Assembly (NCBI RefSeq): GCF_030253575.1
Contig: NC_080563.1
Span: 36,193,001 to 36,257,000, forward strand
Length of the DNA: 64,000 bases
DNA from: Rhododendron vialii
Lineage: Eukaryota; Streptophyta; Magnoliopsida; Ericales; Ericaceae
Direction of reading: 5' to 3'
Made by a program: the position numbers and the translations under genes. The notes beneath the pieces were generated by a model that was not told the DNA's origin, did not search any database, and worked only from the letters and a program-made list of their open reading frames with translations. Of this stretch, positions 4,057-64,000 are shown piece by piece (the stretch's first letter is position 1; each line of letters begins with the position of its first letter).

Positions 4057-4086
4057 CTGTGGTTCTCAACCTCTTCTCTCCAACTG

Positions 4087-4126
<40 letters not shown>

Positions 4127-4199
4127 AAACACGCAGTTGATTGTTTTTGATTCAGGGAGAGAGTAACACATTATACATACTCCTAAGTCCTGACAAAAA

Positions 4200-7281: not shown

Positions 7282-8160
7282 CTACCATGGGCCCCGAAAT
7301 AAGAAACCGAGGAAGGATCAAATCAACACTTCGTAATTATCAATGAAAACTATAATGCAAACATTTTCAAATATTCGTTTTACGTTCATCCAACGAAGGA
7401 GATCAGTATGTGGATAACGGTAATCCTATATCGAAAGGGGAAAAAAAAAAAACCATGAGCATCTCGTTGAATGTCAAGTAATTGAAGTAGGCCTGTAAAT
7501 TATTTTGTGAATTTTTTTTATTTTGCAAACTTTTTTATTTGTGCTCACTTATTTTTAAGTCTAGATATATTTTCTCAATAAAAAAAGGAGTGGGCGGGGC
7601 TAGTAAACCCGATATCCCATACGGGCTGAGATACCTACATTACCCAGTAGGGGTTTCGGGGCTAAACTTTCGGGTCGGGATAGGGCAAAACCCGCCCTGC
7701 CGTCGACCCACATAATTAGTCTTCATACTAAAAAAGTTAAGCGACTCTGATTTTTTGTGTCAGATCTCTAAATGGATCCCATAAAAAATGGTGTACATTT
7801 AATGTTCAACGGCGACAATGGCGGTGTCTGCAACGGCTTCAACATTCAGTCTACGGCGGGGTCATCTAGGAGAGTTTGCTCTATGTCCATACCTCGCCAC
7901 TCCAGTCTTGACCTCTCCAACCCCCTTCTTGAATGTGATCGACAAGTCCGACTCCAGCGTCTTGGCTTCAGGAGGCTTTTCTTTTTGTTTTGTTTATTGT
8001 ATTTTGTTTTTGCTTGTTGTTTTTTCTATTTTCGAACCGATAGTGTCCACTCCACTTTTATTGTACTGTGCTTTTCTTATATATAATATTTGAAATGATC
8101 TTGTTCGCAAAAAAAAATAACTCTAGTGACACTGCACCAAAATATTGTACCTGCCAATCA
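7282..8160. other. Junction region of the two tandem units
   Basis: Contains the remaining intron sequence of the truncated copy up to 7487, the A/B junction, and the start of unit B. The open frames at 7772-8093 overlap non-coding sequence that is not conserved as protein in unit A. No gene recognised. Confidence 0.6.
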
Positions 8161-10365: not shown

Positions 10366-10373
10366 TATAAATA
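10366..10373 (+). promoter_or_regulatory. TATA box of arabinogalactan gene B
   Basis: TATAAATA in the same context (CTCGCTTTCCTCCCCTAT) as in unit A, 123 bp upstream of the ATG and followed by a shorter CT-rich leader. Confidence 0.7.
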
Positions 10374-10495
10374 CTGCGTTTCTCTTCCTCTTCTCTTCAT
10401 AACCCTCTCTCTCTCTCTCTCTCTCTAAAACATTCAGTTGATTGTTTTTGATTCAGGGAGAGAGTAACACATTATACATACTCCTAAGACAAACA

Positions 10496-10927
10496 ATGGC
10501 TCGCTCCAGTGGCGCAATGTTGTTCGTGCTACTCGCTCTGGTCCCCTTATCCGCCATCGCCCAGTCTCCAAGTTCATCTCCAGCCTCTTCGCCAACACAA
10601 TCCACTAGGCCGATGCCCTCTACGCCGCCTCCTCCTCCTCCTGCTCCTTCTCCTATTCCAGTCGCCTCTCCAACCGCCTCGCCAAAATCCTCTCCCACCC
10701 CCTCTCCTTCAACCGCTCCCGTACCCGCTTCTGCAACGGCTCCCGTACCCTCTCCTGCAACAGCTCCCGTGCCCTCTCCCGCCGCCATGACTCCTTCCTC
10801 AATCTCCTCCGCCCCTGCGCACTCTCCGGGACCTTCCTCCACTCCTGAAAGCGCGGCCGCGTTGAACAGAGTCACCGTTGCCGGATCTGCTGCCGTTGTT
10901 TTCTTCGCTGCGACTTTGTTGCTTTAG
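10496..10927 (+). CDS. Classical arabinogalactan protein, copy B
   Basis: Predicted 143-residue intronless paralogue of the gene at 4200. The ATG is chosen by alignment with copy A. An upstream in-frame ATG at 10442 lies in sequence that is non-coding leader in copy A. Layout: signal peptide 1-23 (ending SAIA, mature Gln), then an SP/AP/TP-rich domain, then a C-terminal hydrophobic GPI signal (VTVAGSAAVVFFAATLLL). Compared with copy A the proline run is shorter, and an Ala-Pro-Val-Pro-Ser repeat (TAPVPSPA) is expanded to three copies around residues 76-98. It is expected at the cell surface like its paralogue. Signal and anchor regions are better conserved than the middle, which fits selection for targeting and composition rather than exact sequence. 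Confidence 0.9.
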   Translation: MARSSGAMLFVLLALVPLSAIAQSPSSSPASSPTQSTRPMPSTPPPPPPAPSPIPVASPTASPKSSPTPSPSTAPVPASATAPVPSPATAPVPSPAAMTPSSISSAPAHSPGPSSTPESAAALNRVTVAGSAAVVFFAATLLL

Positions 10928-11634
10928 ATCTGATAGCGAGTTACCACGTTAATTCTTTTTTGTTTTATTTTGATTGATTGATTTATTTATTTGGATAAGT
11001 GCCTGTTGGTTATGGGATGTATTCTTTGTCATCATTATCCCTGGCTTTTTTCTCGAATGTTTCGGTATTAGTATTTTTTTTTTAATATTTTGAATAGAGT
11101 ATACGTTGAATCAGTTTATCTGTGTTTCTTGGTTAAAGCGGTTTTATCGGAAAACAAGGCAATCACTTATGCATTCAAAGGCCAACGACACTTACAATGA
11201 AATCCAACCAAAACTATCAAGCATCTCAACTCACAAATGGACTACAACAAAAGCTACAAAGATAAGAAAATTATGTTTCTTGGTAAAAGCATTTCATCTA
11301 TATGTTGAAGACAAGTCACATAATTCGTGTGCTTGTGCGTTGAAAGTATCTTTGAAACATATTTCAAACTATTAAAATTTGTGAGAGTGAAGATCGTGTA
11401 ACTAAGGGTAGAAAAATACAAGAGAGTTTAAAGAAGTCCTATTTGAAATGTTTTTTCTTTTAGATTTTAGGTTTTAAATATCCTAAAAATTGATTTATTT
11501 TTTTGCAACAAAAAATATCAACCTAGATAATCTAATACTAAAAACTAAAAATTTATTGCAATATCTATAATTCTCGCAAATACTCTCTGAATGCATCATA
11601 TTGGATGTAACCCTAATTAATACAGAATGAATAA

Positions 11635-11854
11635 ATAAGTAAACACAACTCACATAGAAATAAATAATCTATGTTTGTTTTTGGGAGAGATTAACCCCGT
11701 GATCCCTCGTTTAGAAGTGTACAAATGTGACTAAGTGAACTAAAATAAGTAAACACAACTCACATAGAAAGAAATAATCTATGTTTGTTTTTGGGAGAGA
11801 TTGACCTCATGATCCCTAGTTTAGAAGTGTACAAATGTGACTAAAGTGAACTAA
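11635..11854. repeat. Tandem 110-bp duplication in unit B
   Basis: Two adjacent copies start AATAAGTAAACACAACTCAC (from about 11635 and 11745) and run through GATCCCT(C/A)GTTTAGAAGTG. The corresponding unit A sequence (about 5435-5540) has one copy, so this duplication arose after the units separated. Confidence 0.85.
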
Positions 11855-12956
11855 CTCTAATCGATAAAAATGCCTCTCTCTTTTTTATTGAGAAAATGTA
11901 TAGAACCTCATGAAGGGGTTTTAGGAGCTTTTTCCCCAAAGACAAACTCTCCAAAAACTTTGGTCAATGTTGTTCCCGAAAAAGTTTTCCCACACATTCA
12001 TTGAATGACAATGGATCAAACAAAATTTTATAGAATGACATTCATTGAATTGGTAAGTGAGAGTGCAATTGTTGTACTATTTTATAGTAGAATGACATTC
12101 ATTGAATTGAAAAGTGATAGTTGAAACAGAGTATCCTAGGACGGCCGAAATAATAAAGATGGAGGGATCCTATGTTCTTAGGATTTACTTGGAACCTATA
12201 GAAAGAGAAGAAAGGAAGAGAAAATCATTTTTCTTGTTTGGTTTGAAAGATTGTAATATAGTACTAATAGAAAAGAATGTAACAAATTAGTATTAAGCAC
12301 AAATAAATTTGGTTTGCCATGTGGTTCACAGCTGTTCCATGTGAAAATTGCATCAGAAACATTTTGTTTATCGGACATATATATTGTGTGAGCTAGGAAT
12401 GATTGGGAGGAATTCTGTAAGGTCCACAACGGGTTTTATTTTGAAGATTCGAATGGTTTTAGCTTCTGGATCTGAAGCAAATGAAAAAGAATTAATACAG
12501 AAGTAAGATCAGAGCACGTCCCAATGATTTTATCGTCCATGCAGAAAAATCACGTTTATTGAACATCAGTTAAGACTTGGCCTAGTCATATTTGTCTAAA
12601 ACAATTTAAATTCTCTGATCGATACTCCTGTCCGATACAAACCGTACAATGATTTTATCGTCCGTGCATAAAAATCAAGTTAATTGAATCTCAATTAAAA
12701 CTTTGTTTAGTCATATTTGTCTAAAACGAAGTGAATTGTCTGATGGATGCTCATATCCCGTCAACTTGATTTTTGACATCAAGAATAAATACATCGAGAC
12801 AAGTAACATGAATAACTTGTCACATAAGACTAAGGTGGTTCTAGTCCGAAACCAAGTAGATTGGATCCGTGCTATTCCCAAACCAAGTACTCGATCAATC
12901 ATCCATATGCCCATATAATATTAATTACAAACATCTTTTAAATGGTCATGAAAATC

Positions 12957-12958
<2 letters not shown>

Positions 12959-12998
<40 letters not shown>
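12959..12998. repeat. (GA)n microsatellite
   Basis: About 20 GA repeats just downstream of the phytocyanin stop codon, in its presumed 3' region. Unit A has a much shorter run at 6853-6868. Confidence 0.9.
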
Positions 12999-13000
<2 letters not shown>

Positions 13001-13001
13001 T

Positions 13002-14865
13002 TTACAAGACAACAAATTTATACAATGCGACCCAAGTACCCATCATTGCAACAAAAGGAGAAAGAGCCCCTGAGGAAGATGGTGCCGGAACAGAGCTAGG
13101 TGGCTCGGTATAAGTCGTCGGGGGTGGCGGCGGGGCAGTGGTGGTGGTACCGGTGGGCGGCGGAGATCCGGAGGGCTCGGCCACAGGTCCTCCTCCGGCG
13201 GTGGCAGTGACGGCCAGCTTCATCCCGCTGCCGCAGTGGCCAATGACGCCGCAGATGTAGTAATGGGTCCCGGCAGTACTGAGAGATACGTTGGTGGACC
13301 CACTGTTGTCTGTGCTGATCGGGTTTCCTACAGTGCAGTTGTTGTAGTCGCTTTGACTGACTTCATCCACCGTGTGACCGCTTCCATAATTGAACACTAC
13401 CATGGGCCCCGAAGTAAGAAACAGAGGAAGGATCAAATTAACACTTCGTAATTATTAATGAAAACTGTAATGCAAACATTTTCAAATATTCGTTTTTCGT
13501 TCATCAACCAAGATCAGTATGTGAATAAGGTAATCCTATATCGATTGAGAGAGAGAGAGAGAGAGAAAAACCATGGGCATCTTGTCGAATTTCGAGTAAT
13601 TGAAGAATGCCTCGTGAGGAGAACAGAGCATCTCTAACGTTGGCTTGAAAGTTAGATGTGTCCAATTTTTTTTGGAAAGGTTATGGGACAGTTTTACGTC
13701 TTCAAATTTGACACCTACACGGCTACACCCATTGTCAAGTTTTCCCTATTAATATTTTTGCCGTTTCAAAAAAAAAAAAAAAGGTTCGCCATTTTAATAG
13801 ATAGGCAAACTCGAAGGAAGTGAATCAACTGGAAGAAGAACGAGATTCATGACTCAATTCCTCTATTAGATAGTCATGAGATGACTGAGATGGGAAGAAA
13901 GGGAGTTGCAAAAAGAGGACATTAGATGAAAAAGGATATGCTCCTTCTGGGGATGAAGTAAGGGATAACATTCTAGGAATGAAGTGAGGGATAACATTTG
14001 ATTAGATTCTAGCGATGAAGTAAGGGATAACATTTGATTAGATTCTGTGGACGGGACATGGATCCAAAAGGAAAAAATGAGACCTTAGTCAATGCATTAC
14101 GGAATCATGTTGATCTGCTCGGTCAAGCTACTCTGGATGTAAAACTTTGCTTCAAATGTGAAATCGTCGGTTTTTTTTTTTTGTCTTCCACTGGTTACTT
14201 TCTACAGCAAAAAACACAGATTTGACATTGCTGTCAAAATTGACAGCAAGTGAGGGATGAAAAGTTGGAGGGGCCTTGGCTGTTTGTTTTTACCGTTTGA
14301 GATGCCACAGAGGATTTGGCAGCCCGTTGGTGTTGCGCAGGCTCAGATTATTCTAGTTGCATTCTAAATCTCACGGGAGATCAGTCAATCAAATAGGAAC
14401 CAACCGCAAAAGTGTTGCCAGGCATCAAAGGGAGTGAAAAAGTTGTAAAATACCAAAGCAAGAAAAGAAAAGAGCATAACAGTGTTTTAGCCACAAACTA
14501 ACAAAACTATGCGATGGACCTTGGGTACTTTGCCGGATGGTGGTGTAGCTCCTCCGGAGTGTGAGGGAAAAAACCGTGCACAGTACTAACAGAGTCGACT
14601 AACATACTAAACGGGAAATATCCTATCGTCTGGGAAAAAACAAAAACAAAACTGTACGTGCTATGTATGAGGAGGTAATTAATGAGAACTCACCAAGGCT
14701 GTCACCAACCACAAAAGTCTTGCCGCTTGTCCAGGTGGTGTAATCAACCCCCATTGTCCATCCACTTGAGTCCCCCACAGTGTAAACCGTGGCCAAACTA
14801 GGCACTGCCAAATGCAAGGCTAGTGATAAAACACACACAATAATTGCAGCACAAGAACTTGTCAT
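13002..14865 (-). CDS. Uclacyanin-like phytocyanin (blue copper protein), two exons
   Basis: Exon 1 is 14865-14694 and exon 2 is 13396-13002. The donor CCTTG/GTGAG and acceptor GGTAG/TGTTC join in frame as [12 protein letters not shown], giving 188 residues. Residues 1-25 are a signal peptide. The cupredoxin domain has the type 1 copper ligands expected of uclacyanins: His in GSGHTV, then Cys, His and Met in [11 protein letters not shown]. Cysteines in YNNC and GHC can form the family disulfide. A Pro/Thr/Ser-rich AGP-like stretch follows, with a hydrophobic end (about [10 protein letters not shown] onward) fitting a GPI anchor. The protein probably sits on the outer cell surface; the physiological role of uclacyanins is mostly undefined beyond electron transfer and wall processes. 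The 1.3 kb intron holds the tandem-duplication breakpoint and small repeats. A TATA motif lies at 14930-14938. Confidence 0.88.
13947..14047. repeat. Short tandem repeat in phytocyanin intron
   Basis: Three copies of a GATGAAGTAAGGGATAACAT-like unit (the middle one begins AATGAAGTGAGGG), two followed by TTGATTAGATTCT. A MITE-like fragment starting GAGCATCTCTAACG is at 13624. Confidence 0.75.
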
Positions 14866-49010: not shown

Positions 49011-50077
49011 GCACCTACCATACAGGCTGGTCATTAATGGCAAATGTGATACAAAGAGCTCGAATGAACACAATAAGAAACATGACAATGAGAAATGTTC
49101 AACAGGCAGCACATTTTGACTCTGACCAAACAAAAAACTTAAGGAACACAAAAAAATAGCAAGGTACAACACTTGAAATGCCAAAAAAACAGCCGTGTAC
49201 CGGGACTCAAGTTTCATAAAATATTATGCCAACAACTAGCATAATGGCTAAAGCAATATCCAGAACCTCACAAGGTTGGGGGTCAATAAAGGTGTGCCTT
49301 AGAATAAAGAAAAATCAGTATGAAGTTCCAGAAAGTCAAGAACAAAAATTAATCAAACACAACAAAGTGAACAAAAACTTACAAGCTAACATATTTTACT
49401 GGCTAATCGAAAATATTACTCAACCACAATGATAACCTAACAAGATCAGAAGTGCAGATCCACTTATAAGTTGAGATCCATGTGCACGTTCAGAAACACG
49501 CAGCGGCAGAATGTTTCTCAACTTGACCTTCAGTATAATTTCATTCTTTATTTTTGCCTCCTGGTGAGGGGAAAATAAAGTATCGCTCATTACATATCTT
49601 CCCATAATTATTTGTTAGCATGCCGAAATGTGTTGTGATCTACTGTACAGGACTACGGGTAGATCAATACAGTAAAAGAGAAAGATAGAGTACATGTACG
49701 ACTGGGATACGGCCGGAAAATTAGAGTTCTTATATTTAGAGGTAGGTGTTACATATAGTAAGTATTCATAAAATTAAGGTAATAGTGACATCACTTAATT
49801 AAAAAGGAAAAAGGTAAGACCTAATCCAAAAATAATCCCGCTTTTCAATGCCAAACTTAAGGTACAAATAAGATTCAAATGTCATTATGCCAACCAAATA
49901 ATAGACCAAAATCTTAATTCTACGAGCATGCTATGCATAGGAAAAAGTCTTGTGAAGTTAGCTTCATTTTTACGTAAAACAAAATACTATTTGGGATGTG
50001 GTACGACTTAGGTATATATTGGAAAAAGTATGAGGTAGGGCAAAAACAATACAAAAAAAACTTCGGTAACTACCGTC
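49011..50077. other. AT-rich intergenic sequence
   Basis: No gene recognised up to the 5' LTR start. CCGTC at 50073-50077 is the presumed left copy of the retrotransposon's target duplication; its partner is outside the window. Confidence 0.5.
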
Positions 50078-52054
50078 TGTAGACACCCCATTCTGGACTG
50101 TCCAGATAACGTTATTTGTCGATCTTATATTTCCCCAATGATGATTTTAGTCGAAAACAGTTTAAGGACAAAGGTGTGGTCGAGCTTTGAGCGTCCCGAA
50201 TCTCTCTCAAACACCTTTCAAAACCCTTCAAACCAGAGCCAAACAGCCCCAGCAAAACCTAATTGGCATACGCCAGTGTCCTGGATGCGTACGCCGGTCA
50301 CCTGCCACGTGTCAGTCATCGACCAGTGGCCCATCTTGTACTGGCGCACGCCAGTCAAACCCAGTCAAATCAACTTTATTCAGCCACTTGGGCGGGACTT
50401 TTGTGCCACCCTGACGTCGGCCACAGTGTCCCTGATGACCGCTTTCGGCCAGGCCCGTTCCCCCTCTCTCCTACACCCCCCATCAAGGCAAGTCCCATGC
50501 ATTTAATGCATGGGAGGCTCCAACCTTACCTTAAACAGCCAAACAGGGCCTTAGACCAGACTGATCTCAGTCACTCCCCCCTCTATAAATACCCCCCTTG
50601 CATTCATTTGCAAGGGGTTGGCCTCATTAAGAAGCACAAAGCTTTCTTCACCTCTCTTCTTGCTCTTTATTTCTCTTCCTCCATTAAAAGAGAAAGTAGA
50701 ACAACCCATCTCCATACACCCTGCTGACATACAGCCATCTTCTCAGCCTCCATCTTCAACCCATAAGCTCAATATCTCCTCCAAACCTCTATACAAAAAG
50801 GTATACCACCTTTACGTTCTTTTCTGTTTTCGATCCCTGAGGGGAGCCAGCAGGGCCCAGGCTAGTAAACAATACTAGTCCTGGCCTTTGAAATGGCAAA
50901 AATGTGACAATCGTATCAGATAAAACATGGCGCACGCCAGTACGTCTATGCCGTACGCCAGTAATGGAAGTATGGGCACAACTGGCGTGGGGATCATGGA
51001 TCGTCATTCCTCTTATTTTATCTTTCTGTCGATCACCTTGGCATGCTAATAACTGGTTTACTGCTTTCCCTATTTTAGAACTGTTTAGTGGTAATATCCT
51101 ATCTTTTTTTCATTTCTGTCATGTAAAGGCCTCTGGGATCCTTCTGGTCATGTTCCAGAACCCAGATGATGCAAAGCCTAACACTGGAATCAAATGACAA
51201 GTGGCGTACGGCAGTAATACACCGGCGTACGGCAGTAGTCCTATGGGTCCAGTGACTGGCCCTTGCACATGAAGCGTAAGCTAGGCCTATCTTATGTCCC
51301 ACACTGTCTTGGGGCGTTCTGCTTTCTTTCATGGCCTAAAGCCATTCATTCTGCCTGTGACTGTGTATATTCTGCTATATTAAACTGCGTGGTTTGCCCT
51401 GGGTGTGCGCTGGTCCCTTTCCAGAGCCCAGAGGGTTGCAAACAAGGACTGAGAGATCCAAAAAGTGGAGTACGCCAGTTTATATGTGGCGTGCGCAGGT
51501 TTGTTTCACCATGCAGTGGCTCGACCAGTGCATGTTGGCAGAATCTGCTCACGTCACCTTGTGACAGCGTACCGCAGTTTGCTCGGGATACTCAGTGCTT
51601 GTTCTCAATCTATATTTAGCATTGCAATCAAACCATTCATATACACTTTGCCATAAATCGCAACTTGTTACAGTATTTTAATTCCCATTAACTGTTCCCC
51701 CGCCCTAACTGGCTAAAAAAAAATGATTAAATGAGAGAAAAGTGCAAACGCTTTATAAAAATGCCTGAGTAGAGACCGATCTCCGGATTGGGCGAGAGGG
51801 GTGCCATAAAACCCTTCCCCTCTCGTAACATGGCTCCCGAACCTCAGATCTCGAAGGTGACGACGGACCAGCCTACAAGCCTTTTTCAAAATCAAACAAA
51901 CGTGGCAAACGTTTTTCGAGTTCGGTTCCTTGGGTGCTCCTACCGCTAAAACCCGAGTGGCGACTCCGAATCGAGGCGTTTCGCCGCGCTCTTTCCAAGC
52001 AAAAAGGGCCGCGCCCAATCTTACGAATAAAATTTTCGGGGGCGCGTGCCCACA
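50078..52054 (+). repeat. 5' LTR (1977 bp)
   Basis: Starts TGTAGACACCCCATTC and ends GTGCCCACA, with one base before the PBS. Contains a TATA box (50584-50590) and many copies of a GGCGTACGCCAGT-like palindromic motif. An AATAAA-type signal lies near the end (52026). The last 280 bp (GGTGACGACGGACCAGCC, then ACCCGAGTGGCGACTCCG) resemble the U5 side of Ogre/Tat LTRs. The right partner LTR is not available, so the boundaries rest on termini and PBS. Confidence 0.85.
50584..50617 (+). promoter_or_regulatory. LTR core promoter with hairpin at the expected start site
   Basis: TATAAAT at 50584-50590 is followed by a perfect 9-bp inverted repeat, CCCCTTGCA (50594-50602) and TGCAAGGGG (50609-50617), with a 6-base loop. 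Transcription should start about 25-35 bases after the TATA, that is within or just after the hairpin. Confidence 0.65.
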
Positions 52055-52055
52055 G

Positions 52056-52073
52056 TGGCGACTCCGCTGGGGA
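52056..52073 (+). promoter_or_regulatory. Primer binding site (tRNA-Arg type)
   Basis: TGGCGACTCCGCTGGGGA, the PBS form known from Ogre/Tat elements, one base after the LTR end. Its first 11 bases also occur inside the LTR at 51958-51968. Confidence 0.9.
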
Positions 52074-53543
52074 ACATTGCATTGATTGATATTTGACGAT
52101 TAATACATAATTGAACAATTCTCAAAAAGCTTGTCAAAACAGTACGCTTCGCGCTGCTGAAGAACGGAATGGTAACGTAACAGGATCTCAGCATCCGACC
52201 AATCCGAACTGGGGCTTTTTACTATTGTTCTCTTGTGTAGTTTTCTCCAAAATATCAATTAATAAAAGTGAGCCAAGCTTCAAAAGGCGTTTGTTTTCAA
52301 AAGTGTTGCATTTTCTCTCATCTAATCATTCTTCGGCATTCTCCGTTCGTATCAATGGATTGGTCAGCCCCGTTGAGGTGTTTTGGGTAACCGGCACAGT
52401 TTACTGGAGCCCGGGGTCCTCGAACGCCCAACAACCTTGGACGATGATGAGTCGTACTACCGTTCGACCATTGCTTTGCTCCACGCGTTGCAATGGGAGG
52501 TATATCGCGGCTCTAGTCAGAGGAACCCCTTTAAGCCAAAACCGGCCTCTACAGCGTGTACAAAGCACTAGAACCTTTCAACCTAAGACAGGAACCCGCA
52601 GGGTAGGATTACTTGCTTCTAACCCCATATCCTGTCTATGTGTTACCGCTTTCCATATCGCATGCCTGTACATACATTCATGATCATTTTGCGTAGGAGC
52701 ATGCTAGGGCGGCTTTTAGGGTGTCTTTTGTCGAGTCTGTCTTGCGCCCACTCAGCATTTGCCTTGGACCGATGACGAGTCGTGCATCTCAATGTTGCAC
52801 GTTACCAGAATTTTCAAATCCTTAATCAATGAGACTTCGGGAAATCGATACTTCCTAAGTCCTTGTCTAAAACCCCATCGAGGTTTCAAGCCGAAAATTA
52901 GGAACAACGGAGAGAATGGCATGATGCTTACACCACTCGGGTTAAAAGTGCTAATCACTTACACCAGGCTCCGGCACAGTGCTGCTTACGCCATTTCGGT
53001 TACGGTATCATGACATCTACACCGAGTTGTTCCAAAGTCAAACTTTGAAACTTCGAGAGGGGAGAAAGTCAAAGGCTTAGGCTGTTTTGGCATCCCTTAG
53101 TAAACATTCGATTCAATCAAGGATACACCGTCGAAAAGAAAATCCGAGGATTCCATGGCAACTGTCCGAGTGGCGTGAAGCAGACTCCCCCTAGTTGTAG
53201 AGTCTAGGAGGACACCGACGACGTTGGCATCATCATTTTTCAATTCCCGTCTATTCTTTCAAATAAAATGACTGCAGGCTGTCACTGAGCTCTTGAACTT
53301 TGCCGTCTAGTCATGCTGATGTCAAAGCAGAATTCCGAGATCAAGAGCCAAACCTACTTGGGACCGTCCGTCGAGTCTGTTTGAGGATCTGATTTGGGGT
53401 TCGTTTTTCAGTCGACCGCAACGGAAGCTCTGGCCTGCACTGTGTCACGAGAGGATTCGCCACCGACTACTCCGCACGAGTCCTCTCCGTCTACTCCATC
53501 TCCGCCAGCATCTCCCAAACCTGTTAAAATAGAAGTACTAGCC
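52074..53543 (+). other. Untranslated leader of the retrotransposon
   Basis: About 1.5 kb between PBS and gag. An open frame of 190 codons (52111-52683) begins near the PBS but has no recognisable domain. Ogre elements carry an ORF1 of unknown role in this place, so it may be a counterpart or chance. The Gag frame is open upstream of its first ATG from 53394 through non-ATG codons. Confidence 0.55.
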
Positions 53544-56500
53544 ATGGCGGATGTCCCACCTCCGAATCTTGCAATCGTCCTAGCCGATCTACAGCGCAAC
53601 CTGGCCATCATGCAACAGAGAGCCGACCAGGCCGACGCCTCTATGGCCAATCTCCAAACCCTAATCGAGGAGCGACTTCCCCTGGTAGCAGGAGGGGAAG
53701 GTGGTGAAAGGCGTGAACAGGGAGCCGCCGGCCAAGAGGAACCATTGGTTGAGAACCCCGCTCCAAGCCCAGAAATGGCAGCTTTGGTCGCCAAGATGGC
53801 CAAGTTGGAAGAAGCCGTCGCCAAATCTGAAAGAAAAGGGTCGGGAGCGCTAGACATGGACCGCCTCTGCCCGTTTCCGAATGCTCGGCTGCCCGATCGG
53901 TTTAAAATGCCCGACTTTGCAAAATTCGACGGCAGCGGAGACCCGAAAACTCACTTGTTGGCCTATCATGGAGCCATGAAGCTGCATGGCGTCGAGGAGG
54001 ACGCCATGGCTCAGCTATTTCCGCAAACTCTGGCCGGTCCCGCCTTCCAATGGTTTCTGTCCCTCGACATCGCCAAGAGGCGGACCTGGGAGGACATCGG
54101 CACGGCCTTCAATGCCCAGTATAGCTACAACGCCCAGCTCAAAATGACCACTCGGGAGTTGGAATCCACCAAGATGACTGCAAAGGAGTCCTTTGCAGAC
54201 TTTATCCAAAGATGGAGAGCCAAGGCCGCTCTCATGCCCGACCGCCCAAGCGAGAAGGATCAGATCCGCATCATCTCCCGTAATCTGCAGCCCGACTTCG
54301 CCAAAAACCTTGTGTTGGTTCAGGGCGCAAACTTTGAAACCTTCTATGACTCCGGGCTGGCCATCGAAGAAGCCCTTCAAACCGGCGTTCTGCCTAGGAG
54401 TGACAATTCCTCCTCCACTTCAGCCTCAAAATCAAAGCCTCGTGCATACACCGGGAACAGCACTGCTTTGTTCGGTGGCAACAGCTACGCCAACGCGAAC
54501 TCTGCCAACAACCCCTCTACCCAAAACTCTAACCACATTGCCGACATTAACCAAGTTCAAACCCCTCAAAGACCCCGAAACCGCAACCAACCTCGTAACT
54601 TCGCCAACTTCGAGGCACCTCTCTCCTCGGTGTTGGAGAAGCTAATCAAAACCGGGCACCTCAGGCCTCTAGCCCCAACTCCACTTCCTCAAAATCCACC
54701 CCCTAGCCATAACCCCAACGCTTTCTGTGCGTACCATCAAATGCCCGGCCATTACACCGATTCCTGCTACCGCCTCCGTCATGCGATACAGGATTTGGTG
54801 GACAATGGCACCCTTCCAACTCCACCAGCAAAGCCCAATGTCATTTCCAACTCCTTACCCAAGCATGACCCTAACCCTCGAGTGAACCAGATAAACCTTA
54901 GCTCCACCATATTCAACCCTACCGACCATATTACCTCAACCTTCAACCAAAGACCAATTGTACCCTTCCCCTCCGAACCAAGCATTAACATGATGGCGGC
55001 CGGTTGGGCCATGGAGGACAGAGCCAAGGAGTGGGAAGAACTTTGCAGTGATTGGACTGAACAGTATAATATGGGATTCCCTGCGCACCCTCAGGTCAAT
55101 CAAATGTGGCTAGATCAGTGGCAGGAAGAATGGAACGCGGCGCAGGTTGACCCTCTGGATGGTCTCTCTCTGTTCACGCTCTTTTACCAGCCCGAACTAA
55201 ACCCCGTCGAAGTGGAAGCCGAGGAGTACGTGTGGGATCCACAGCCTGGTGGATGGCAATTGGGTCAAGGCCTCGAGGCGGATGTGGACCAAAACGACTT
55301 TGATGAGAAGTACTGGGACCAGTTCCAAGAGGGAGAGGTTGTGCCCGAAGTTCGTCGCCCGCTAGGCGCCATGTTACCCTTGGTAAATGCTATTGCTGAC
55401 ACGCTCGACCGTCGCATCCATGAGTGTGATATTACCCTCGACGTTGTTTCTGTGGAACGGCCGCGTCCTGTCATTACAGCCCCCGGGGATGACTGCTCAA
55501 TCATGGTTCTAGATGCGCTTCCGGCCGACCTCTGGGATGCGGAAGAAGCTATTAAGACCTCACCGCCCGCTGATATTTGGGACGTCGACAACATTGTCGA
55601 CCTCAACATGGGGAACGAAGTATGGACCGTCAATACTGCTCTCGTCGATGGAGGATTTTGGGACGTTCCATTCGTCACTAACCCAGGAGCACCATTTGAA
55701 GAAGAGGCTGCACAGGATCCCGCCTTTTGGGAGGGTCTAGTGATGGAGGATTTGGAATGGGATACCGCTCTGGGGACAGATTCGACTGCAGCGGTGGCAT
55801 CAACGGACAAAGGGAAGCGCAAGCTGGAAGAAGTACCGGCCGATCTGTGGGATTCTATTGACTCATCATCTTGGTGGGACGTGGCCAATGTCACTAGGAG
55901 CGGCCGAGTGTTTCAGCCCTCCAACCTCCAGGCGGGAAGCTCGTCCAATCCGCCCGGTCAGAAAGCCACTGTTCCTGCTGCTCAGCGAACTGATCCGCTC
56001 TTTCCGAATGGGGCTCCAGAAGAAGACGCCATTTTGAAACAGCTCGAACGGATTCCTGCCGCCGTCTCTATCTGGGGTCTGATATCGTCATCAAAGGAGC
56101 ATCGTGAGAAGCTGTCTTCCGCATTGGCCCGGCTCACTGTACCGATCGACATTACCCCCGAGGCCATGATTGCTCTCGTGCTACCACTTCTCTCTAAACA
56201 CTCCGTCACTTTCACTGAGAGGGATCTGCCCATTGAAGGAACTGCTCACAACCGCCCGCTGCACATCACCATCAAGTGCCGGGGACATTGGGTGCCAACC
56301 GTGCTAATTGACAACGGCTCAGCTATCAACGTTTGCCCGATGAGGGTTGCCTACCGTTTGGGATTCTCAAAGAGCGACCTAACGCCCTCCAATCTGGCCG
56401 TCAAGGCATATGACAGCACTCGCCGCATGGTGGAAGGAACTCTGATGCTGAAACTGGATGCTGAGGGTTTCGAAATGGATGTAGAGTTCCACGTGGTTGA

Positions 56501-59500
56501 CGTCCCCGCCACCTTTAACCTGCTGCTGGGCAGACCTTGGCTTCATAGGGCCGACATTATGGCTGTACCTTCAACCCTACACCAGAAAGTCATGCTGGGG
56601 CTGCCTACCGGAACCTTAACAATCTGCGCGGACTCTGGGATCCGCCCGCTCACGGATGACGGCACGCCTGTCTTGGGCATTATGCACGGGGAAGAAGACT
56701 CGGACTTCGGGGGTTTCTCTTTCGACACATCTAGCTCAGTCCTCACCATTGCCATGGATGATGACTTCACCATAAGCTCAACTGTCCTCGAAATGATGAG
56801 GAAGATGTCATTCATGCCGGGCCTAGGACTCGGGGCCAACCAACAAGGGATCGCCGAGTTCCCTGTCTTTCCTTCCAACAACGGCCGCTTTGGTCTTGGT
56901 TACACTCCACCGGCCAAAGGCGCCGAAAAGAGGAAAGACACGGGAAAACCTCGAACCCTTTTTGGTAACCCCGACAGCTACTTTGTGCGAGAGGGAGGAG
57001 GTTCTGCTTATTCGGGACAGATAGAGCCGTTTTGGGATCCAGAGGCTTCCACTTGGCTGCCGGGATTTGAAATATTTGCTGCGGACACCTGGTCCGATGA
57101 AGAGACGGCCGAAGAAAAATTGGCCAAAAAGGAGTTCGAGAAGCAGCTGGGTCAGACCAAGGGAGAGTTTGACTGGCTGAAGGCTTTTGATCAAGGGGAT
57201 CTGGAGATGCTGTTCTCCCAAGTAGGTTTGGTTGGCAAGGGCGAAGAAGCTGAAGTGCTGATGCTCGGGCCCGACTCCCCAGATGCTCTCGAGGATCCTA
57301 CCTCCCTCATTGTGAAGGCACAGGGAAGTCTCAATAATTGCATTTTCACTCCGCGTCTAACATGCATTGACGATGAGTCTGAGTCTAACACAGAGTCTGT
57401 CAAGTCTAAGTCTAGCTCAGAGTCGGAGCTTGTGCCTCTCGGCCCTCCACGTCGTAGCTTTTACTTCGAGTTCGAGTCTGTTGTACTTGGCAACCCCGTG
57501 GGGTTTTATGAAATGCATGATCCTACTTCTGACTACTTTGCTAGCTTCTATATAAACTGTGTCGACCCTGACGATGAAGGAACAGACTTCGACGGGGATA
57601 TCCCGGCTGAGTTGCGTTCCCTCATCGAAAAGGAAGACGAAAGGCGTGCTCAGCCTCTAAAAGAAGAAGTAATTTTTGTAAATTTGAAAGACGAGGATGA
57701 CCCCCGCATGATGCAAATCGGTGCAAATCTATCCCCGGAAAATCATGCCGGAACTATCGAGCTTCTCAAGGAATTTCCCGAGATTTTCGCGTGGTCTCAT
57801 AAGGATATGCCCGGCATCGATCCCGAGATAGTGCAGCATCGCATCCCGTTAGAGCCTGGGGCTGTCCCCGTCAAACAGAAGCTCCGCAGAATGAGGCCGG
57901 ATTGGGTTCAGAAGATCAAGGAAGAGGTTACTAAACAGATTGACGCAGGATTCATAAGGGTTGCAGAATACCCCAAATGGGTGGCCAACATTGTGCCCGT
58001 TCCTAAGAAGGATGGAAAGATCCGAGTCTGCGTCGACTTTCGGGACCTAAACAAGGCAAGCCCCAAAGACAGTTTTCCCTTGCCACACATTGACGTGCTT
58101 GTGGACAACACGGCGGGGCATGCCTTGCTCTCTTTTGTCGACGGATTCTCCGGATACAACCAGATCTCTGTGGCACCCGAGGACCAAGAGAAAACGACAT
58201 TTGTCACGGAATGGGGGACTTACTGCTATGTAAAGATGCCGTTTGGGCTGAAGAACGCCGGGTGCACTTTCCAACGGGCTCAAACGACCTTGTTTCACGA
58301 TTTTATCCATAAGACCGTCGAGATCTACGTCGATGACATGATTGTGAAGGCAAAGGAGGAAAAAGACTATCTCCCGACACTCAGGCAATTTCTCGAAAGG
58401 CTCCGCAAATACAATGTGCGCCTGAACCCGCAAAAGTGCACGTTTGGGGTCACGTCAGGCAAAATGTTGGGGTTTCTGATCACCGCGAGGGGAATTGAAG
58501 TGGATCCTTCCAAAATCAAAGCAATCCTTGAGATGGAGCCACCCAAGTCTGAGAAAGGTGTGCGAAGTTTTCTAGGGAAGGTCCAGTTCATCAGCAGGTT
58601 CATCTCTAAGTTAACTCTAACCTGCGGGCCGTTGTTCCATTTGCTCAAAAAGGGGGTCCCATTCGAATGGACGGAGAAATGCCAGACCGCTTTCGAGTCT
58701 ATTCAGAGGTATTTGCAGAACCCACCGGTGCTGATGCCGCCAACGCCGGGTCGGCCTTTGATTCTCTATCTGTCCGTTTCTTCAACAGCCATGGGGTGTC
58801 TGCTAGCACAGGAAGGAAGCAATGGGGTCGAGAAGGCTGTGTACTACCTGAGCAAGAAGATGGTCGGATCTGAGGAGCGTTATACCCCTCTGGAAAAGAC
58901 GTGTTGGGCGCTAGTTTGGGCTACAAGAAAGCTTAGACACTACATGCTAGCCTATTCGGTGAGACTGATTTCTCGGATGGATCCTATCAAGTATCTGTTC
59001 GAGAAGCCGGCGCTCACCCATAAGCTAGCACGTTGGTTGCTTCTGCTGGCTGAGTTCGAACTCCAACATGTCACGAGGAAGTCTGTAAAGGGGCGCGCTG
59101 TGGCCGAATTTTTAGCTGATCACCCTATCGACGGCCCGGAAGACGTGGATTTCACATTCCCCGACGAAGAGGTTCTAACAGTGGTCGAAGAAGTATGGAC
59201 GCTCTATTTTGATGGGGCTGCTAACCAAAGGGGATTCGGGATCGGAGTATTGTTGATCACGCCCGCCGGTGCACACATTCCTCTCGCCTTCAAACTGAAT
59301 TTCGATGTCACCAACAATCAAGCCGAGTATGAGGCCTGCATCGTCGGAATGGAAGCTGCTATCGCTTTAGGGGTCGAGAAGTTGGAAGTAATTGGCGATT
59401 CGAACTTGGTGGTTTCCCAAGCCAATGGAGATTGGAAGGTTCGTGAGGAAAAGCTGAAGCCTTATCACCAAGATTTGGAAGAACTGATTCCTCGCTTCAA

Positions 59501-60926
59501 TAAGGTGACTTTCACCCATGTCCCACGCTTGAGGAATCAGTTCGCCGATGCATTGGCGACTTTGGCTTCAATGATCGAACTTCCAATAGGAGTTAAGCTG
59601 CGGCCAATTGTGATTGAACAGAGGGACTTGCCCGCTTACGAGTATATCAACGCCATTGATGATGTCGATGATGGCCTACCCTGGTACCATGACATTTGGA
59701 ACTTTGTGGAGCGCGGGGAGTTCCCTATTGAGGCCACGAAGAAGGACCGGATTGCCTTACAGAGGCTGGCTTCTCAGTACATCATCTGTGGGGGAAAGCT
59801 GTATCGAAGGTCGCACTGCGGGATGCACAAGCTCTGCGTCAACGGCGTCGAGGCAACAAGGATAATGGAGGCGGTTCACGAAGGAGTCTGCGGGCCTCAC
59901 ATGAGCGGCATCATGCTCGCTAGGAAAATCCTCAGGCAGGGTTATTACTGGTCTACAATGGAGACGCAGTGCATCGACTATGTCCGGCGCTGCTACAAGT
60001 GTCAAATCCACGCAAACTTGCAGCATGTCCCTCCGTCTAAGCTGTATGGCATGACTTCGCCGTGGCCGTTCTCTGTTTGGGGCATCGATGTTATCGGGAT
60101 GATCAGACCGTCTGCTTCAAACGGCCATAAGTTTATACTAGTAGCGATAGACTATTTCACCAAATGGGTCGAGGCCGAATCCTACAAGACGCTGACAATG
60201 GTTCAAGTTGCTCAGTTCATTCGAAAGAACATCATTTACCGGTACGGAGTTCCTCAGGCATTTGTATCCGATAACGGGAGCCATTTCAAGGGGAGGGTTC
60301 TGGAGCTCTTCGAGGAATTTGGTGTCGAGATCCATCATTCAACGACCTATCGCCCGCAAACAAATGGGGCTGTCGAAGCTGCAAACAAGAATGTCGAGAT
60401 GATCATCAAGAAGACTACCGAGTCTGCAAGGGATTGGCACGAGCAGCTGCCTCTCGCCCTCTGGGGGTACCGGACATCTATTCGCACTTCAACGGGTGCA
60501 ACTCCTTTCTCTTTAGTCTATGGGATGGAGGCGGTACTTCCCATCGAGCTCGAGGTACCATCGCTGAGAATCATGGTCGAAAGCGGTCTTGAGGAAACTG
60601 ACTGGTTAAGCGGAAGGTTTATCGAGTTGATGTTGTTTGATGAGAGAAGACTCCGGGCCTTGTATCATGTTCAGGGGTATCAGCGTCGAATTGCCCGTGC
60701 ATTCAACAAAAAGGTGAAGTCCAGGGGCTTGGTCGAAGGAGACATGGTCACGAAGGAGATCCGGGCTCCAGTGTTTGATCCTCGTGGGAAATTCAGGCCG
60801 AAGCGATCCGGGCCATACATCATCAAGGCCATCCTATCCGGGGGTGCTGCTAAGCTCATCGACCTCGACGGCAATGAATTCAACACCCTGGTCAACCTGG
60901 ATCAGCTCAAGCGTTATTTTCCCTGA
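53544..60926 (+). CDS. Gag-Pro-Pol polyprotein, uninterrupted (2460 aa)
   Basis: Start chosen at the first in-frame ATG (MADVPPPNLAIV). Approximate residues: coiled coil 10-50; Gag core 114-280 (FDGSGDPKTHL, WFLSLD); zinc-knuckle-like CAYHQMPGHYTDSC 394-407; a W-D-rich acidic linker 540-790 with repeated PAD(L/I)WD; aspartic protease with DNGSA at 923; a G-patch-like stretch (GLGLGANQQGI) about 1090; reverse transcriptase from about 1430 with YVDD at 1595; standard RNase H 1735-1855; archaeal-type RNase H 1884-2012 (YFDGAANQ, NQAEYEA, GDSNLV, ADALA); integrase with HHCC zinc site 2109-2160 and catalytic Asp 2182, Asp 2243 and Glu 2278 (34 residues between the last two). No stop or frameshift, no intron. 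The polyprotein would drive reverse transcription and integration. The copy looks recent and possibly competent. Confidence 0.95.
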   Translation: MADVPPPNLAIVLADLQRNLAIMQQRADQADASMANLQTLIEERLPLVAGGEGGERREQGAAGQEEPLVENPAPSPEMAALVAKMAKLEEAVAKSERKGSGALDMDRLCPFPNARLPDRFKMPDFAKFDGSGDPKTHLLAYHGAMKLHGVEEDAMAQLFPQTLAGPAFQWFLSLDIAKRRTWEDIGTAFNAQYSYNAQLKMTTRELESTKMTAKESFADFIQRWRAKAALMPDRPSEKDQIRIISRNLQPDFAKNLVLVQGANFETFYDSGLAIEEALQTGVLPRSDNSSSTSASKSKPRAYTGNSTALFGGNSYANANSANNPSTQNSNHIADINQVQTPQRPRNRNQPRNFANFEAPLSSVLEKLIKTGHLRPLAPTPLPQNPPPSHNPNAFCAYHQMPGHYTDSCYRLRHAIQDLVDNGTLPTPPAKPNVISNSLPKHDPNPRVNQINLSSTIFNPTDHITSTFNQRPIVPFPSEPSINMMAAGWAMEDRAKEWEELCSDWTEQYNMGFPAHPQVNQMWLDQWQEEWNAAQVDPLDGLSLFTLFYQPELNPVEVEAEEYVWDPQPGGWQLGQGLEADVDQNDFDEKYWDQFQEGEVVPEVRRPLGAMLPLVNAIADTLDRRIHECDITLDVVSVERPRPVITAPGDDCSIMVLDALPADLWDAEEAIKTSPPADIWDVDNIVDLNMGNEVWTVNTALVDGGFWDVPFVTNPGAPFEEEAAQDPAFWEGLVMEDLEWDTALGTDSTAAVASTDKGKRKLEEVPADLWDSIDSSSWWDVANVTRSGRVFQPSNLQAGSSSNPPGQKATVPAAQRTDPLFPNGAPEEDAILKQLERIPAAVSIWGLISSSKEHREKLSSALARLTVPIDITPEAMIALVLPLLSKHSVTFTERDLPIEGTAHNRPLHITIKCRGHWVPTVLIDNGSAINVCPMRVAYRLGFSKSDLTPSNLAVKAYDSTRRMVEGTLMLKLDAEGFEMDVEFHVVDVPATFNLLLGRPWLHRADIMAVPSTLHQKVMLGLPTGTLTICADSGIRPLTDDGTPVLGIMHGEEDSDFGGFSFDTSSSVLTIAMDDDFTISSTVLEMMRKMSFMPGLGLGANQQGIAEFPVFPSNNGRFGLGYTPPAKGAEKRKDTGKPRTLFGNPDSYFVREGGGSAYSGQIEPFWDPEASTWLPGFEIFAADTWSDEETAEEKLAKKEFEKQLGQTKGEFDWLKAFDQGDLEMLFSQVGLVGKGEEAEVLMLGPDSPDALEDPTSLIVKAQGSLNNCIFTPRLTCIDDESESNTESVKSKSSSESELVPLGPPRRSFYFEFESVVLGNPVGFYEMHDPTSDYFASFYINCVDPDDEGTDFDGDIPAELRSLIEKEDERRAQPLKEEVIFVNLKDEDDPRMMQIGANLSPENHAGTIELLKEFPEIFAWSHKDMPGIDPEIVQHRIPLEPGAVPVKQKLRRMRPDWVQKIKEEVTKQIDAGFIRVAEYPKWVANIVPVPKKDGKIRVCVDFRDLNKASPKDSFPLPHIDVLVDNTAGHALLSFVDGFSGYNQISVAPEDQEKTTFVTEWGTYCYVKMPFGLKNAGCTFQRAQTTLFHDFIHKTVEIYVDDMIVKAKEEKDYLPTLRQFLERLRKYNVRLNPQKCTFGVTSGKMLGFLITARGIEVDPSKIKAILEMEPPKSEKGVRSFLGKVQFISRFISKLTLTCGPLFHLLKKGVPFEWTEKCQTAFESIQRYLQNPPVLMPPTPGRPLILYLSVSSTAMGCLLAQEGSNGVEKAVYYLSKKMVGSEERYTPLEKTCWALVWATRKLRHYMLAYSVRLISRMDPIKYLFEKPALTHKLARWLLLLAEFELQHVTRKSVKGRAVAEFLADHPIDGPEDVDFTFPDEEVLTVVEEVWTLYFDGAANQRGFGIGVLLITPAGAHIPLAFKLNFDVTNNQAEYEACIVGMEAAIALGVEKLEVIGDSNLVVSQANGDWKVREEKLKPYHQDLEELIPRFNKVTFTHVPRLRNQFADALATLASMIELPIGVKLRPIVIEQRDLPAYEYINAIDDVDDGLPWYHDIWNFVERGEFPIEATKKDRIALQRLASQYIICGGKLYRRSHCGMHKLCVNGVEATRIMEAVHEGVCGPHMSGIMLARKILRQGYYWSTMETQCIDYVRRCYKCQIHANLQHVPPSKLYGMTSPWPFSVWGIDVIGMIRPSASNGHKFILVAIDYFTKWVEAESYKTLTMVQVAQFIRKNIIYRYGVPQAFVSDNGSHFKGRVLELFEEFGVEIHHSTTYRPQTNGAVEAANKNVEMIIKKTTESARDWHEQLPLALWGYRTSIRTSTGATPFSLVYGMEAVLPIELEVPSLRIMVESGLEETDWLSGRFIELMLFDERRLRALYHVQGYQRRIARAFNKKVKSRGLVEGDMVTKEIRAPVFDPRGKFRPKRSGPYIIKAILSGGAAKLIDLDGNEFNTLVNLDQLKRYFP

Positions 60927-60949
60927 GAGATGCTCGTTGGGTCGAAAAA

Positions 60950-61210
60950 CCACAAGGGTGGGCGATTCCAAGCAAAAGTTAGAGCAGCCTGCTAGACCGA
61001 AAACCTAAGGAGGCGGTTCTAGGCAAAAATAAATAGGCAAAAGTCGAAAGCTCGCTAGACCGAAAACCTGCAAAGGCGGTACTAGGCAAAAGTTAGAGCG
61101 TAAAAGGAGAGGTAAAATACCCGAGTGAACCTTGGCCTGAACTACGTTCTGACCTGATTCCCTGAAAAGGGATACGTAGGCAATCTCACCTTGAGATTCG
61201 GTCACACTCT
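60950..61210 (+). repeat. Repeats and conserved Tat-type motif downstream of pol
   Basis: Two copies of a unit containing GCTAGACCGAAAACCT and GGCGGT(T/A)CTAGGCAAAA lie at about 60990-61030 and 61050-61090. They are followed at about 61135-61190 by GAACTACGTTCTGACCTGATT then AAGGGATACGTAGGCA. From memory, similar GAACTAC...TACGTAGGCA sequence occurs in many Tat/Ogre elements; its role is unknown to me. Confidence 0.7.
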
Positions 61211-61246
61211 ATCAAAATTTCGATCCAGGTTCGACATTTTTTTTGA

Positions 61247-61266
61247 GGGGGGGGGGGGGGGGGGGG
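61247..61266 (+). repeat. Poly-G run (20 G)
   Basis: Twenty consecutive G after a T-rich stretch ending GA. It could act as a polypurine tract or be simple slippage. An A-run follows at 61371-61389. Confidence 0.85.
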
Positions 61267-61472
61267 TCGAGCACAAGTCAAAGGCAGCACCGAAGCGAGT
61301 CAGAAAGGGGGAAACCTGTTGTCTTTCAACTTTATTGCAAATTACTATTTCTAATACATAAGCTGAGCACAAAAAAAAAAAAAAAAAAAGTTGAAGCATG
61401 AAAAACAGAACAAAATGCTTATGAAGCCTAACGGCTCGCAGTTTATTCTAAGCATAGCAGAGTGGCCCGGAG

Positions 61473-62730
61473 TCAGTCAATACTTTCTCTTTCATTCACA
61501 TCTGCTCTCAGCCACTGTCTGTAGCGCCTCCTCAGCCCTGTTGAAAAATCTGGCATCTCAGCCTGAAGGGCTTTAAGGCCCCAGCGCCGTTGGTAACCAC
61601 CGAGTGTTTGAGCATTGAAGTTCGGGACACGGAAATCCCCAATGCTGGTGCGGTGGTTCTCTTGAGAGGCGCCCAACTGTCGAAGAACACGGCCGGGAAT
61701 GTAGAAAGTGAAACTCGATAGCCCAGCAATCACCATCCGGTCGAATCCGTCGGAGGAAATAGCCATATCCGGAAGGTCCAGCCAGGGGCACCTCCAAGCA
61801 ATCTCATCAGGCTGCATTTGCTGCATGAACGCATACCAGCCTTCTATGTCCATGTCCGGATACCGCATCTCCCTTTGATGGATCCTCTTCGGAAAGAGAT
61901 TCCAGCCCGCTACCGGAGGATGCAAGAGATTCAACTTGTCTGACAGCCACAACTGTATGAGAGGAAAAGACAAGTAAGAGGCTAGATAAAACCTGAGCGA
62001 AAAGACAAGTAAGGAGCTAGGAAGCAACCTAAGCCGAGCGTTGAGGTAAAATGAGAACGTGTGAAAAGCCGGAAAAAGGTGAGCTGAGTGAGATTACCTG
62101 AAGCAAAAGCGGGCTGCCGCTGAAAACGGCAGACTGGCCCGTATACACCAAATCCAAACCCAAGAGAGTTTCGGCCAGGACCAGAGGGACCACGTTCCTT
62201 CGCGCCCCCATCTGTGCAGCAACGCTCACCAGTGAAGGGCTGACCCGCCCGTCGGCCGGCACAAGCAAGTAGGCGGCCAGCAAGCAGATCACCAAGGCAA
62301 AGCGGCGACGCGCCTGAGCATCATCACTAGCCAAATCGCCGTCCGGGCTGTACATTTCGATCAACCGCATGATTTTCAATTGGCCGCCCTCCAGGATGGT
62401 ATTCGCCAAGCCCCGGGAAATGTTGAGTGAACTGGCCAGCAATTTGGGCATACTCACCTGGTAGGGCGGAACTACAAGCGTAGGGGACGAGAAGGTCCGA
62501 AGGTACGCCTGGAATTCTTCGACAGTCGGGCACATCTCGTCGTCGCCAAAGCGAAAGACATGGACGTCCGGATCCCAGAATCTGAGAGCTGCCTGCAGGA
62601 GCGCTGGGCGGAGTGGCACATGCCGAAGAAAGCGGAACGAGGCGAGGCCGTGGTATTGAAAATTGAGCCAGTCAACGCTTAGAAATTGCCCCAACCAGGG
62701 CCTAAGTAAAGTCAGGAGGGGGTTATCCAT
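61473..62730 (-). CDS. Antisense DUF7745 / plant-mobile-domain-like gene within the retrotransposon
   Basis: Two exons, 62730-62098 and 61952-61473, joined at LLLQ/LWLSD through a GT...AG intron of 145 bp with no phase change, giving 370 residues. The N-terminal half matches the DUF7745 pattern I recognise from plant proteins near the PMD family: ALRFWDPDVHVFRFGDDEMC followed by PTVEEFQAYL. The second half has EGWYAFMQQMQPDEIAWRCP and ends in an Arg-rich stretch. Antisense extra genes between pol and the 3' LTR are reported for Tat elements; their role is unknown, with proposals around PMD proteins acting in silencing. A TATA box lies at 62801-62806. It is intact and spliceable, suggesting that it is kept by selection in the element. 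Confidence 0.82.
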
Positions 62731-64000
62731 GGCAAATATTGAAGTATACTGGAGGAAAGGGGAAGCAGTGCACCTTGAAAAACCTTTGCAGGGCCTCTGC
62801 TTTATAGGCCTTTGCCCTTTGAATTTCTTTCCACTAATGGGGCATCCAAAGCCTCATGCTACACTCCAAATCATGTTCCTGCAAAGGACACTGCCCCCCT
62901 GAGACACCCAGAAACCGTGTGCAAACCGTGTAGGGGTGAAGACAAAGTGGCCCCCGAAAAAGGACAGTTGGTCAGTCAAGTGGATCTGGCACTCAGGACC
63001 CTGGCGTACGCCAGTTATTTACTGGCGTGTCCGTGTCCCCACATTACTGGCGTACTGCCCTCAACTTCTGGCGTACGCCAGTCGGCTTCACCAGAAACCA
63101 GTCTTGAGCAGCTACTGCCTCCGTGTGGTCGTTTTCAATTCCGGGGCTGGCTTTGGCTATTTGTTGGGTCCTACAAGTCACAAATGACATTTAAGACTAT
63201 GGCCAAGCATCGGATTCCAAAAGCCACGCCCGATGAAGATTTTGGACCCTCGGTGGCCCGTGTCGAGACAAAATCAAGGATACGGATGGTCAAAACTCGT
63301 TTCCGGGGCTCTTGCCAAGTTTTGTCATACCACACAAGTTGCGTAGGACTTATGTGACTGTGTGGGGGTGTCGGTTTCAGTCCGGGACTATATCGAGTCA
63401 TCTTTGGCGTCTTATGCCCGTTTTTATGGCATTTTTAGCATTTTTTTGGTATTTCCCCTTGCACCGGGACTTTTCTATTCGGTTTTGATGGCTCGTACAG
63501 GTCATTGTGCATCTATGTCACCTTTCAAAAGGGTCAGTTCCCTTCCCCGGGGAGAATCTTAGAGTTTGGCCTACCGGCGCCGAAAACTCCCGTATCCCCC
63601 GCGTGTCTGGGATACGTATGGTATCCTAGGACGTTTCTGTCCATCTTTTCTTCGAGCTAAGTCAATTATGTGCGTAGTCAAGTGTCTGTGGTCGACTCAA
63701 AGTATTCATCAATGCATGTTAGATATTAGCGGATGTTTTGTTCTTTTCCTTTACCAAGTCTCACCAAAGTAATGGGAAAGCAGTAAAACAGAAAATGCAT
63801 CTATTATATACTACTGTGTCAAAGCTACTGGTGGAAATGTATCAGGTATCAAACGACACAACGGCCCGGGCAGAGCTAAATGTATCAGGGCACACTCGCC
63901 CGCAAAATCAAGAGGCACGCAGGCCCCGTCCAAAACATCGAGTATCAAAGTATCTATCCAAAAGTGGCAAGTACCGGCAAAATAGACTGAGGCTCGGTGA
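62731..64000. other. Retrotransposon non-coding 3' region
   Basis: Upstream side of the antisense gene. Contains further GGCGTACGCCAGT palindromes (63003-63085). No coding region recognised; the short plus-strand frames lack domains. The 3' LTR is not reached. Confidence 0.6.
62801..62806 (-). promoter_or_regulatory. TATA box of the antisense gene
   Basis: TATAAA on the minus strand, 71-76 bases upstream of the antisense ATG. This would give a leader of about 40 bases and supports a promoter independent of the LTR. Confidence 0.6.

Follow-up and report, generated by a model that had tools for sequence, protein, structure and literature searches.

Antisense open reading frames (ORFs) are described as typical of Retand elements (PMC11963269) and are known in Grande (PMC7264820), where the maize antisense protein is reported to be nuclear and to have its own promoter; the role of the antisense genes of plant long terminal repeat (LTR) retrotransposons is an open question. 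Among plant mobile domain (PMD) proteins, PMD-A1/A2 are given as solely Gypsy-encoded (PMC5418596), PMD is reported in 57% of Ogre elements (PMC6317226), and the host proteins MAIN and MAIL1 are described as interacting mutually and with PP7L and as silencing transposable elements (TEs). Counter-silencing by TE-encoded PMDs has already been proposed (PMC8616336); among the matches listed, that text and PMC6419827 are the two that mention both VANC21 and the plant mobile domain, in the parts available as unconnected subjects; DUF7745 is not mentioned among the matches listed for literature on the plant mobile domain. Here we analyze a window of 64,000 nucleotides from Rhododendron vialii (NC_080563.1, positions 36,193,001 to 36,257,000, forward strand) that contains most of a complete, recently inserted retrotransposon of ~20.7 kb, the rest of which lies in L049, the DNA immediately after the window. 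Two genes, A and then B, run antisense between pol and the 3' LTR of this element. We establish that gene B is a gene under purifying selection, and we propose that its product may protect the element from silencing.

The initial annotation described a spliced antisense gene with a TATA box, encoding a 370-residue DUF7745/PMD-like protein, and this description stands (coordinates of all features are in Table 1). The spliced frame of gene B has its sole stop at the end, and its protein matches DUF7745 in Pfam above the cutoff (E 1.2e-11, 44.7 bits, cutoff 26) and PMD (PF10536) below it (E 4.2e-7, 29.9 bits, cutoff 34.9). That the gene is opposite to gag-pol holds for the strand but not for the position, as gene B lies beyond the end of pol (60926) and does not overlap gag-pol. 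To compare copies, we searched the host genome (532.6 Mb in 13 contigs), in which exon 1 has at least 150 matches (150 of 1256 candidates scored), and aligned 40 copies from the upper part of the ranked exon 1 matches with the window, giving 41 sequences; this choice favours an intact exon 1, and exon 2 lay outside the query. TATAAA is present in all 41 (window included) and lies in GCCTATAAAGC, a run of 11 sites, each differing in at most one sequence, within a leader where many sites approach a diversity of 0.5; a run this long arose in 0.19% of 10,000 label shuffles. The donor GT (40/41), the acceptor AG (41/41) and the first AATAAA (40/41) are similarly retained. Judged from these signals, gene B appears to have its own TATA promoter, from which it is presumably expressed.

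Selection on gene B acts at the level of the codon. The median ratio of nonsynonymous to synonymous substitution rates (dN/dS) is 0.103 for the spliced frame in the 808 pairs, out of 820, whose dS exceeds 0.03, with 0.088 for exon 1, 0.115 for exon 2 and 0.077 for the end of pol, and the pooled pN/pS, the corresponding ratio for polymorphism, is 0.126 for gene B and 0.165 for pol. Wrong frames on the gene B strand gave dN/dS of 1.4-2.1. On the sense strand, the mirrored frame gave 0.195, an echo of the codon pattern that is to be expected, and the other two 1.2 and 2.6; control frames gave 0.64-0.86 in the spacer and upstream region and 0.55, 0.58 and 1.32 in the intron. Indels per kb per copy number 0.04 in exon 1 and 0.05 in exon 2, against 1.55 in the intron, 0.9 at the end of pol, 5.4 upstream and 8.7 in the 3' spacer, which contains homopolymer runs. 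Spliced frames are intact in 30/41 sequences; among the 11 broken ones, eight have one internal stop, one has a frameshift and two have lost the start or stop codon. Purifying selection among copies, raised in the initial annotation, is therefore established, and the decay at a neutral rate that would have spoken against that annotation is not seen. On the same dN/dS values, a chance ORF was rejected. One copy (L047) has lost its ATG and has an intron of 179 nt, where 144-145 is usual.

Gene A lies upstream of gene B, and its model was predicted by eye from reading frames and splice sites. The spliced product matches PMD well above the cutoff (E 1.1e-38, 133.8 bits, cutoff 34.9) and has a basic and acidic C-terminus. 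In a comparison of L049 with ten copies, which covered exons 2-4 of the six, exons 2, 3 and 4 are under purifying selection (pN/pS 0.113, 0.038 and 0.178; wrong frames 1.4-3.2), and the two introns among them are 82-85% identical with ~20 indels per kb and splice dinucleotides retained in 11/11. BLASTP matches to gene A occur in four of 96 gene B homologs (R. molle P0017, P0024 and P0048; R. vialii P0060), and in all four the gene A sequence precedes that of gene B; the A-then-B order thus occurs also in R. molle, as seen from its three gene models. The pol-gene B arrangement is likewise common to R. molle, since the protein ends of gene models P0010 and P0040 match the antisense of the pol end. 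In R. vialii, the end of pol and gene B are arranged identically in 40/40 copies, which were found via gene B, so that copies lacking it would escape. P0060 (LOC131309706) joins gene A exons to part of gene B with the same acceptor and another donor; transcriptional read-through or an error of gene prediction may account for it. That gene B is a captured host gene decaying passively in the element is a disfavoured explanation with next to no probability: 11 of the 41 frames are indeed not intact, but dN/dS near 0.10, the invariant TATAAA and the near absence of exon indels reject neutral decay, and the A-then-B order in the three R. molle models also opposes it.

The initial annotation further held that the gene travels in unspliced sense genomic RNA, and the genome agrees. 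A 25-mer across the exon 1-intron boundary has 235 genome matches, against one for a reversed control, and the exon-exon junction 25-mer has none at up to three mismatches, although 40/41 sequences would have been detectable by the junction probe had they been spliced. Because of these counts, inheritance of gene B in intron-bearing form, through unspliced sense genomic RNA, is strongly supported by the genomic copies. In a junction survey of 39 homologs of unannotated source among 93, 28 pass from ...LQ, at the same donor, into a read-through that begins with V (and in P0063 is open into exon 2), one continues into an A, four run straight into exon 2 (P0001, P0038, P0077, P0079) and six have no visible junction. 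The four without the intron may be of cDNA origin or intron-less copies.

Conservation of the gene B intron is close to that of the exons and far above that of synonymous sites and two gene A introns. Its identity across the same 11 elements is 93.4%, compared with 82-85% for the gene A introns and 83.9% for third codon positions of gene B, and its diversity outside CG/CHG context is 0.038 versus 0.137 at four-fold sites. Comparison with distant families, which used the translated read-through only and first-order resamples as the null, found conservation in all three frames in 13 of 36 rows that beat all 300 resampled introns (exon 1 identity 49-81%); the other 23 fail to beat the resamples and include intron-less gene models and homologs with a different intron. 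RNA folding of the intron gave nothing unusual on either strand. We considered that the intron may act as a cis-element (an internal polypurine tract or a splicing enhancer). The adjacent pol-gene B spacer (60930-61472) has a base diversity of 0.046 outside CG/CHG sites despite many indels, and contains a run of 20 G (61247-61266).

The predicted structure of a gene B homolog, made from 78 sequences, is a confident fold that extends across the splice junction; an earlier prediction from 21 sequences was poor (predicted local distance difference test 47.9). This model matches the fold of the DNA-bound VANC21 core at 8% identity, in a comparison that aligned 685 pre-ranked chains and in which the absence of other families is uninformative. 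A VANC-like fold is, at the level of a model, well supported for the homolog. DUF1985, the VANC domain, was found in 0/78 gene B homologs, and gene A exon 2 matches it weakly, below the cutoff (E 0.0013). Sequence searches of PDB found no significant match for the gene A or gene B protein. The closest named proteins to gene B are from Rhododendron, with R. vialii P0060 showing 99% identity across 26% of the query, and a protein search from homolog P0079 gave five matches; no relative was found in a search of a genome contig collection or in a viral contig search, in which an intron 18-mer also had no match. The fold and the codon-level selection bear on the idea that the antisense transcript acts as RNA, as double-stranded RNA or small interfering RNA (siRNA) in self-limitation or host trapping, with the frame incidental. 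Tea is reported to have 175 phased-siRNA loci at PMD genes (PMC10673657), and antisense RNA is discussed as a regulator (PMC7264820). However, dN/dS near 0.1, with selection on both gene B exons and three gene A exons, and a confident predicted fold across the homolog's splice junction speak against such a role, and we reject it as very improbable.

If gene B acts like VANC, a short motif should be clustered in the noncoding DNA of the element, and the element contains a candidate. The palindrome GCGTACGCCAGT was first spotted by eye, so that counting it is a check and not a blind prediction. Allowing up to two mismatches, the window has 21 matches, 20 of them in noncoding element DNA (1.28 expected). 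Besides the two clusters in Table 1, collapsed sites number one in the 5' leader, two upstream of gene A, none in gag-pol or gene B and one in the 50 kb outside the element. A k-mer count without a preset motif ranked k-mers of a 30-bp array beside the 3' LTR first and ACGCCAGT next; the latter occurs 12 times across 7.3 kb of the element's noncoding DNA, and is absent from the element's coding DNA and from the initial 50 kb of the window. The array (L049:4169-4593, 14.2 units, just before the 3' LTR) resembles the repeat arrays that have been described for Tat elements and for VANC targets. Upstream of gene B, all 41 sequences have one to four sites at up to one mismatch (resampled mean 0.000), and CpGs that fall within them vary less than the remaining CpGs of the region (0.038 vs 0.111; 10 vs 78 sites). 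These clusters fit a VANC-like action of gene B.

Our model is that selection maintains gene A (six predicted exons, PMD) and gene B (two exons, DUF7745), that both would be inherited via unspliced sense genomic RNA, with introns removed from the antisense mRNA alone, and that the product of gene B, possibly together with that of gene A, is most likely a sequence-specific DNA-binding protein of VANC fold. This protein would bind the palindromes that recur in the element's LTRs and antisense promoters, and the bound regions would stay unmethylated and active. Anti-silencing appears to be the best mechanism for gene B, given the indirect support of the fold match to VANC21 and the motif clusters; we infer expression, nuclear DNA binding, anti-silencing and cooperation of A with B. 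The motif evidence has two qualifications: two GCGTACGCCAGT-type sites lie inside coding gene A exon 1, and the palindrome binder could be a host factor. As a whole, we give this model an even chance. Another possibility, unlikely but the strongest of the alternatives, is that both antisense proteins act in the nucleus to regulate transcription or integration of the element, like HBZ of human T-cell leukemia virus type 1 (HTLV-1), binding element DNA with methylation unaffected. The same selection, promoter and motif evidence would support this, as would the nuclear Grande protein with its own promoter and the regulatory role described for retroviral antisense genes, but the sole clear fold neighbour among the 685 chains is an anti-silencing protein, though one that also acts by binding DNA. 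Quite improbable, in our judgment, is that the element's PMD-class proteins mimic or poison the host MAIN/MAIL1/PP7L silencing complex without binding element DNA. Gene A is a canonical PMD, and MAIN and MAIL1 are described as PMD partners in silencing; such mimicry predicts neither the motif clusters nor a VANC-like fold for gene B.

Table 1. Features of the element, in window coordinates unless stated.
Feature	Position	Strand	Details
5' LTR	50078..52054	+	1977 bp; paired with 3' LTR by alignment
GCGTACGCCAGT-type palindrome, nine sites	50262-51578		In 5' LTR
Primer binding site TGGCGACTCCGCTGGGGA	52056..52073	+	Directly after 5' LTR, by inspection
gag-pol	53385..60926	+	Single open frame, 2513 aa
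AATAAA poly(A) signals of gene B	61442..61447 and 61331..61336	-	3' of stop
Exon 2 of gene B	61473..61952	-	159 codons + stop
Intron of gene B	61953..62097	-	145 nt, phase 0, GT...CAG (GT-AG)
Exon 1 of gene B	62098..62730	-	211 codons
TATA box of gene B, GCCTATAAAGC	62799..62809	-	TATAAA at 62806-62801
GCGTACGCCAGT-type palindrome, three sites	63000..63082	.	~200-280 bp upstream of gene B TATA box
Gene A	67831-64007 (L049:7-3831)	-	Six predicted exons, five GT-AG phase-0 introns, 922 aa
3' LTR	68817 to 70813, past window end		LTR alignment

Of two overlapping alignments of the LTRs, one (1186 columns) has a single mismatch and a single gap opening and the other (913 columns) has two mismatches, and the target site duplication CCGTC is present at both ends. 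The primer binding site is possibly of the tRNA-Arg type. By Pfam, gag-pol reads gag, G-patch (below cutoff), RT (reverse transcriptase), RNase H (RT_RNaseH, residues 1788-1891), a second RNase H (RVT_3, 1943-2060) and integrase (rve, 2228-2324). The Tat clade of angiosperms is described as marked by an additional RNase H, of archaeal type, placed after the first and before integrase (PMC6317226), and because this order is found here, the element fits Tat-clade Ty3/gypsy, assigned no lower than Tat. Ogre is described with a primer binding site complementary to tRNA-Arg (PMC9289625) and with an intron that divides gag-pro from RT-RH-INT, each in a frame of its own (PMC6317226), whereas gag-pol here is one frame; neither gene B (E up to 1) nor gene A in spliced form (E up to 0.1) matches Transposase_28 (TRP28, PF04195), the Retand marker. 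For these two reasons we place the element in neither Ogre nor Retand. An Rfam scan of 50000-64000 gave no match at E up to 0.5. Elsewhere in the window, positions 1-13505 contain many direct repeats ~5.6-6.4 kb apart, in some cases 8.2 kb, and probably represent tandem duplication of a ~6-kb block.

Antisense encoding is a way for a retrotransposon to keep introns, and surveys seeking only long uninterrupted ORFs would consequently cut short or overlook such genes. Neither the Retand survey (PMC11963269) nor the review (PMC7264820) uses the word 'intron' in its main text, and no antisense intron-containing retrotransposon gene was reported among the matches listed, judged by title and the start of the abstract. 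To the role of these antisense genes, the present locus offers a testable answer in the form of a VANC-like protein, a candidate target motif and a promoter. It resembles the aORF-3R of Tat elements (Grande gene23, RIRE2, Retand TRP28), coding sequence that most copies carry in antisense between pol and the 3' LTR, here in all 40 copies found via gene B and with the 235 exon-intron junctions genome-wide; an own promoter (Grande) and tandem repeats in the same region are further likenesses, whereas the lack of a TRP28 match and the presence of two genes with predicted introns set it apart. Like Gypsy-encoded PMDs (PMD-A1/A2, Ogre), it places a PMD-class protein on a Gypsy element, but as two tandem genes that are antisense and spliced. 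Host MAIN and MAIL1 (PMD-C) share the superfamily and also work as a pair; the genes here are element-borne and would be expected to help the element rather than silence it, which suggests a possible link between element-borne anti-silencing proteins and host PMD silencers. More speculatively, and with somewhat less than an even chance, PMD, DUF7745 and VANC would form one mobile-element superfamily of anti-silencing DNA-binding proteins, Tat elements would bear an anti-silencing cassette of two spliced antisense genes whose target motif lies in LTRs and promoters, and MAIN/MAIL1 would be members turned against elements. Relative to VANC of VANDAL, the carrier is a retrotransposon instead of a DNA transposon, the motif differs from YAGTATTAY and the gene B family has no DUF1985 match, yet the two have in common the VANC21 core fold (predicted, on a gene B homolog), a short motif clustered in the noncoding DNA of their own element, and an intron-containing gene on a mobile element.
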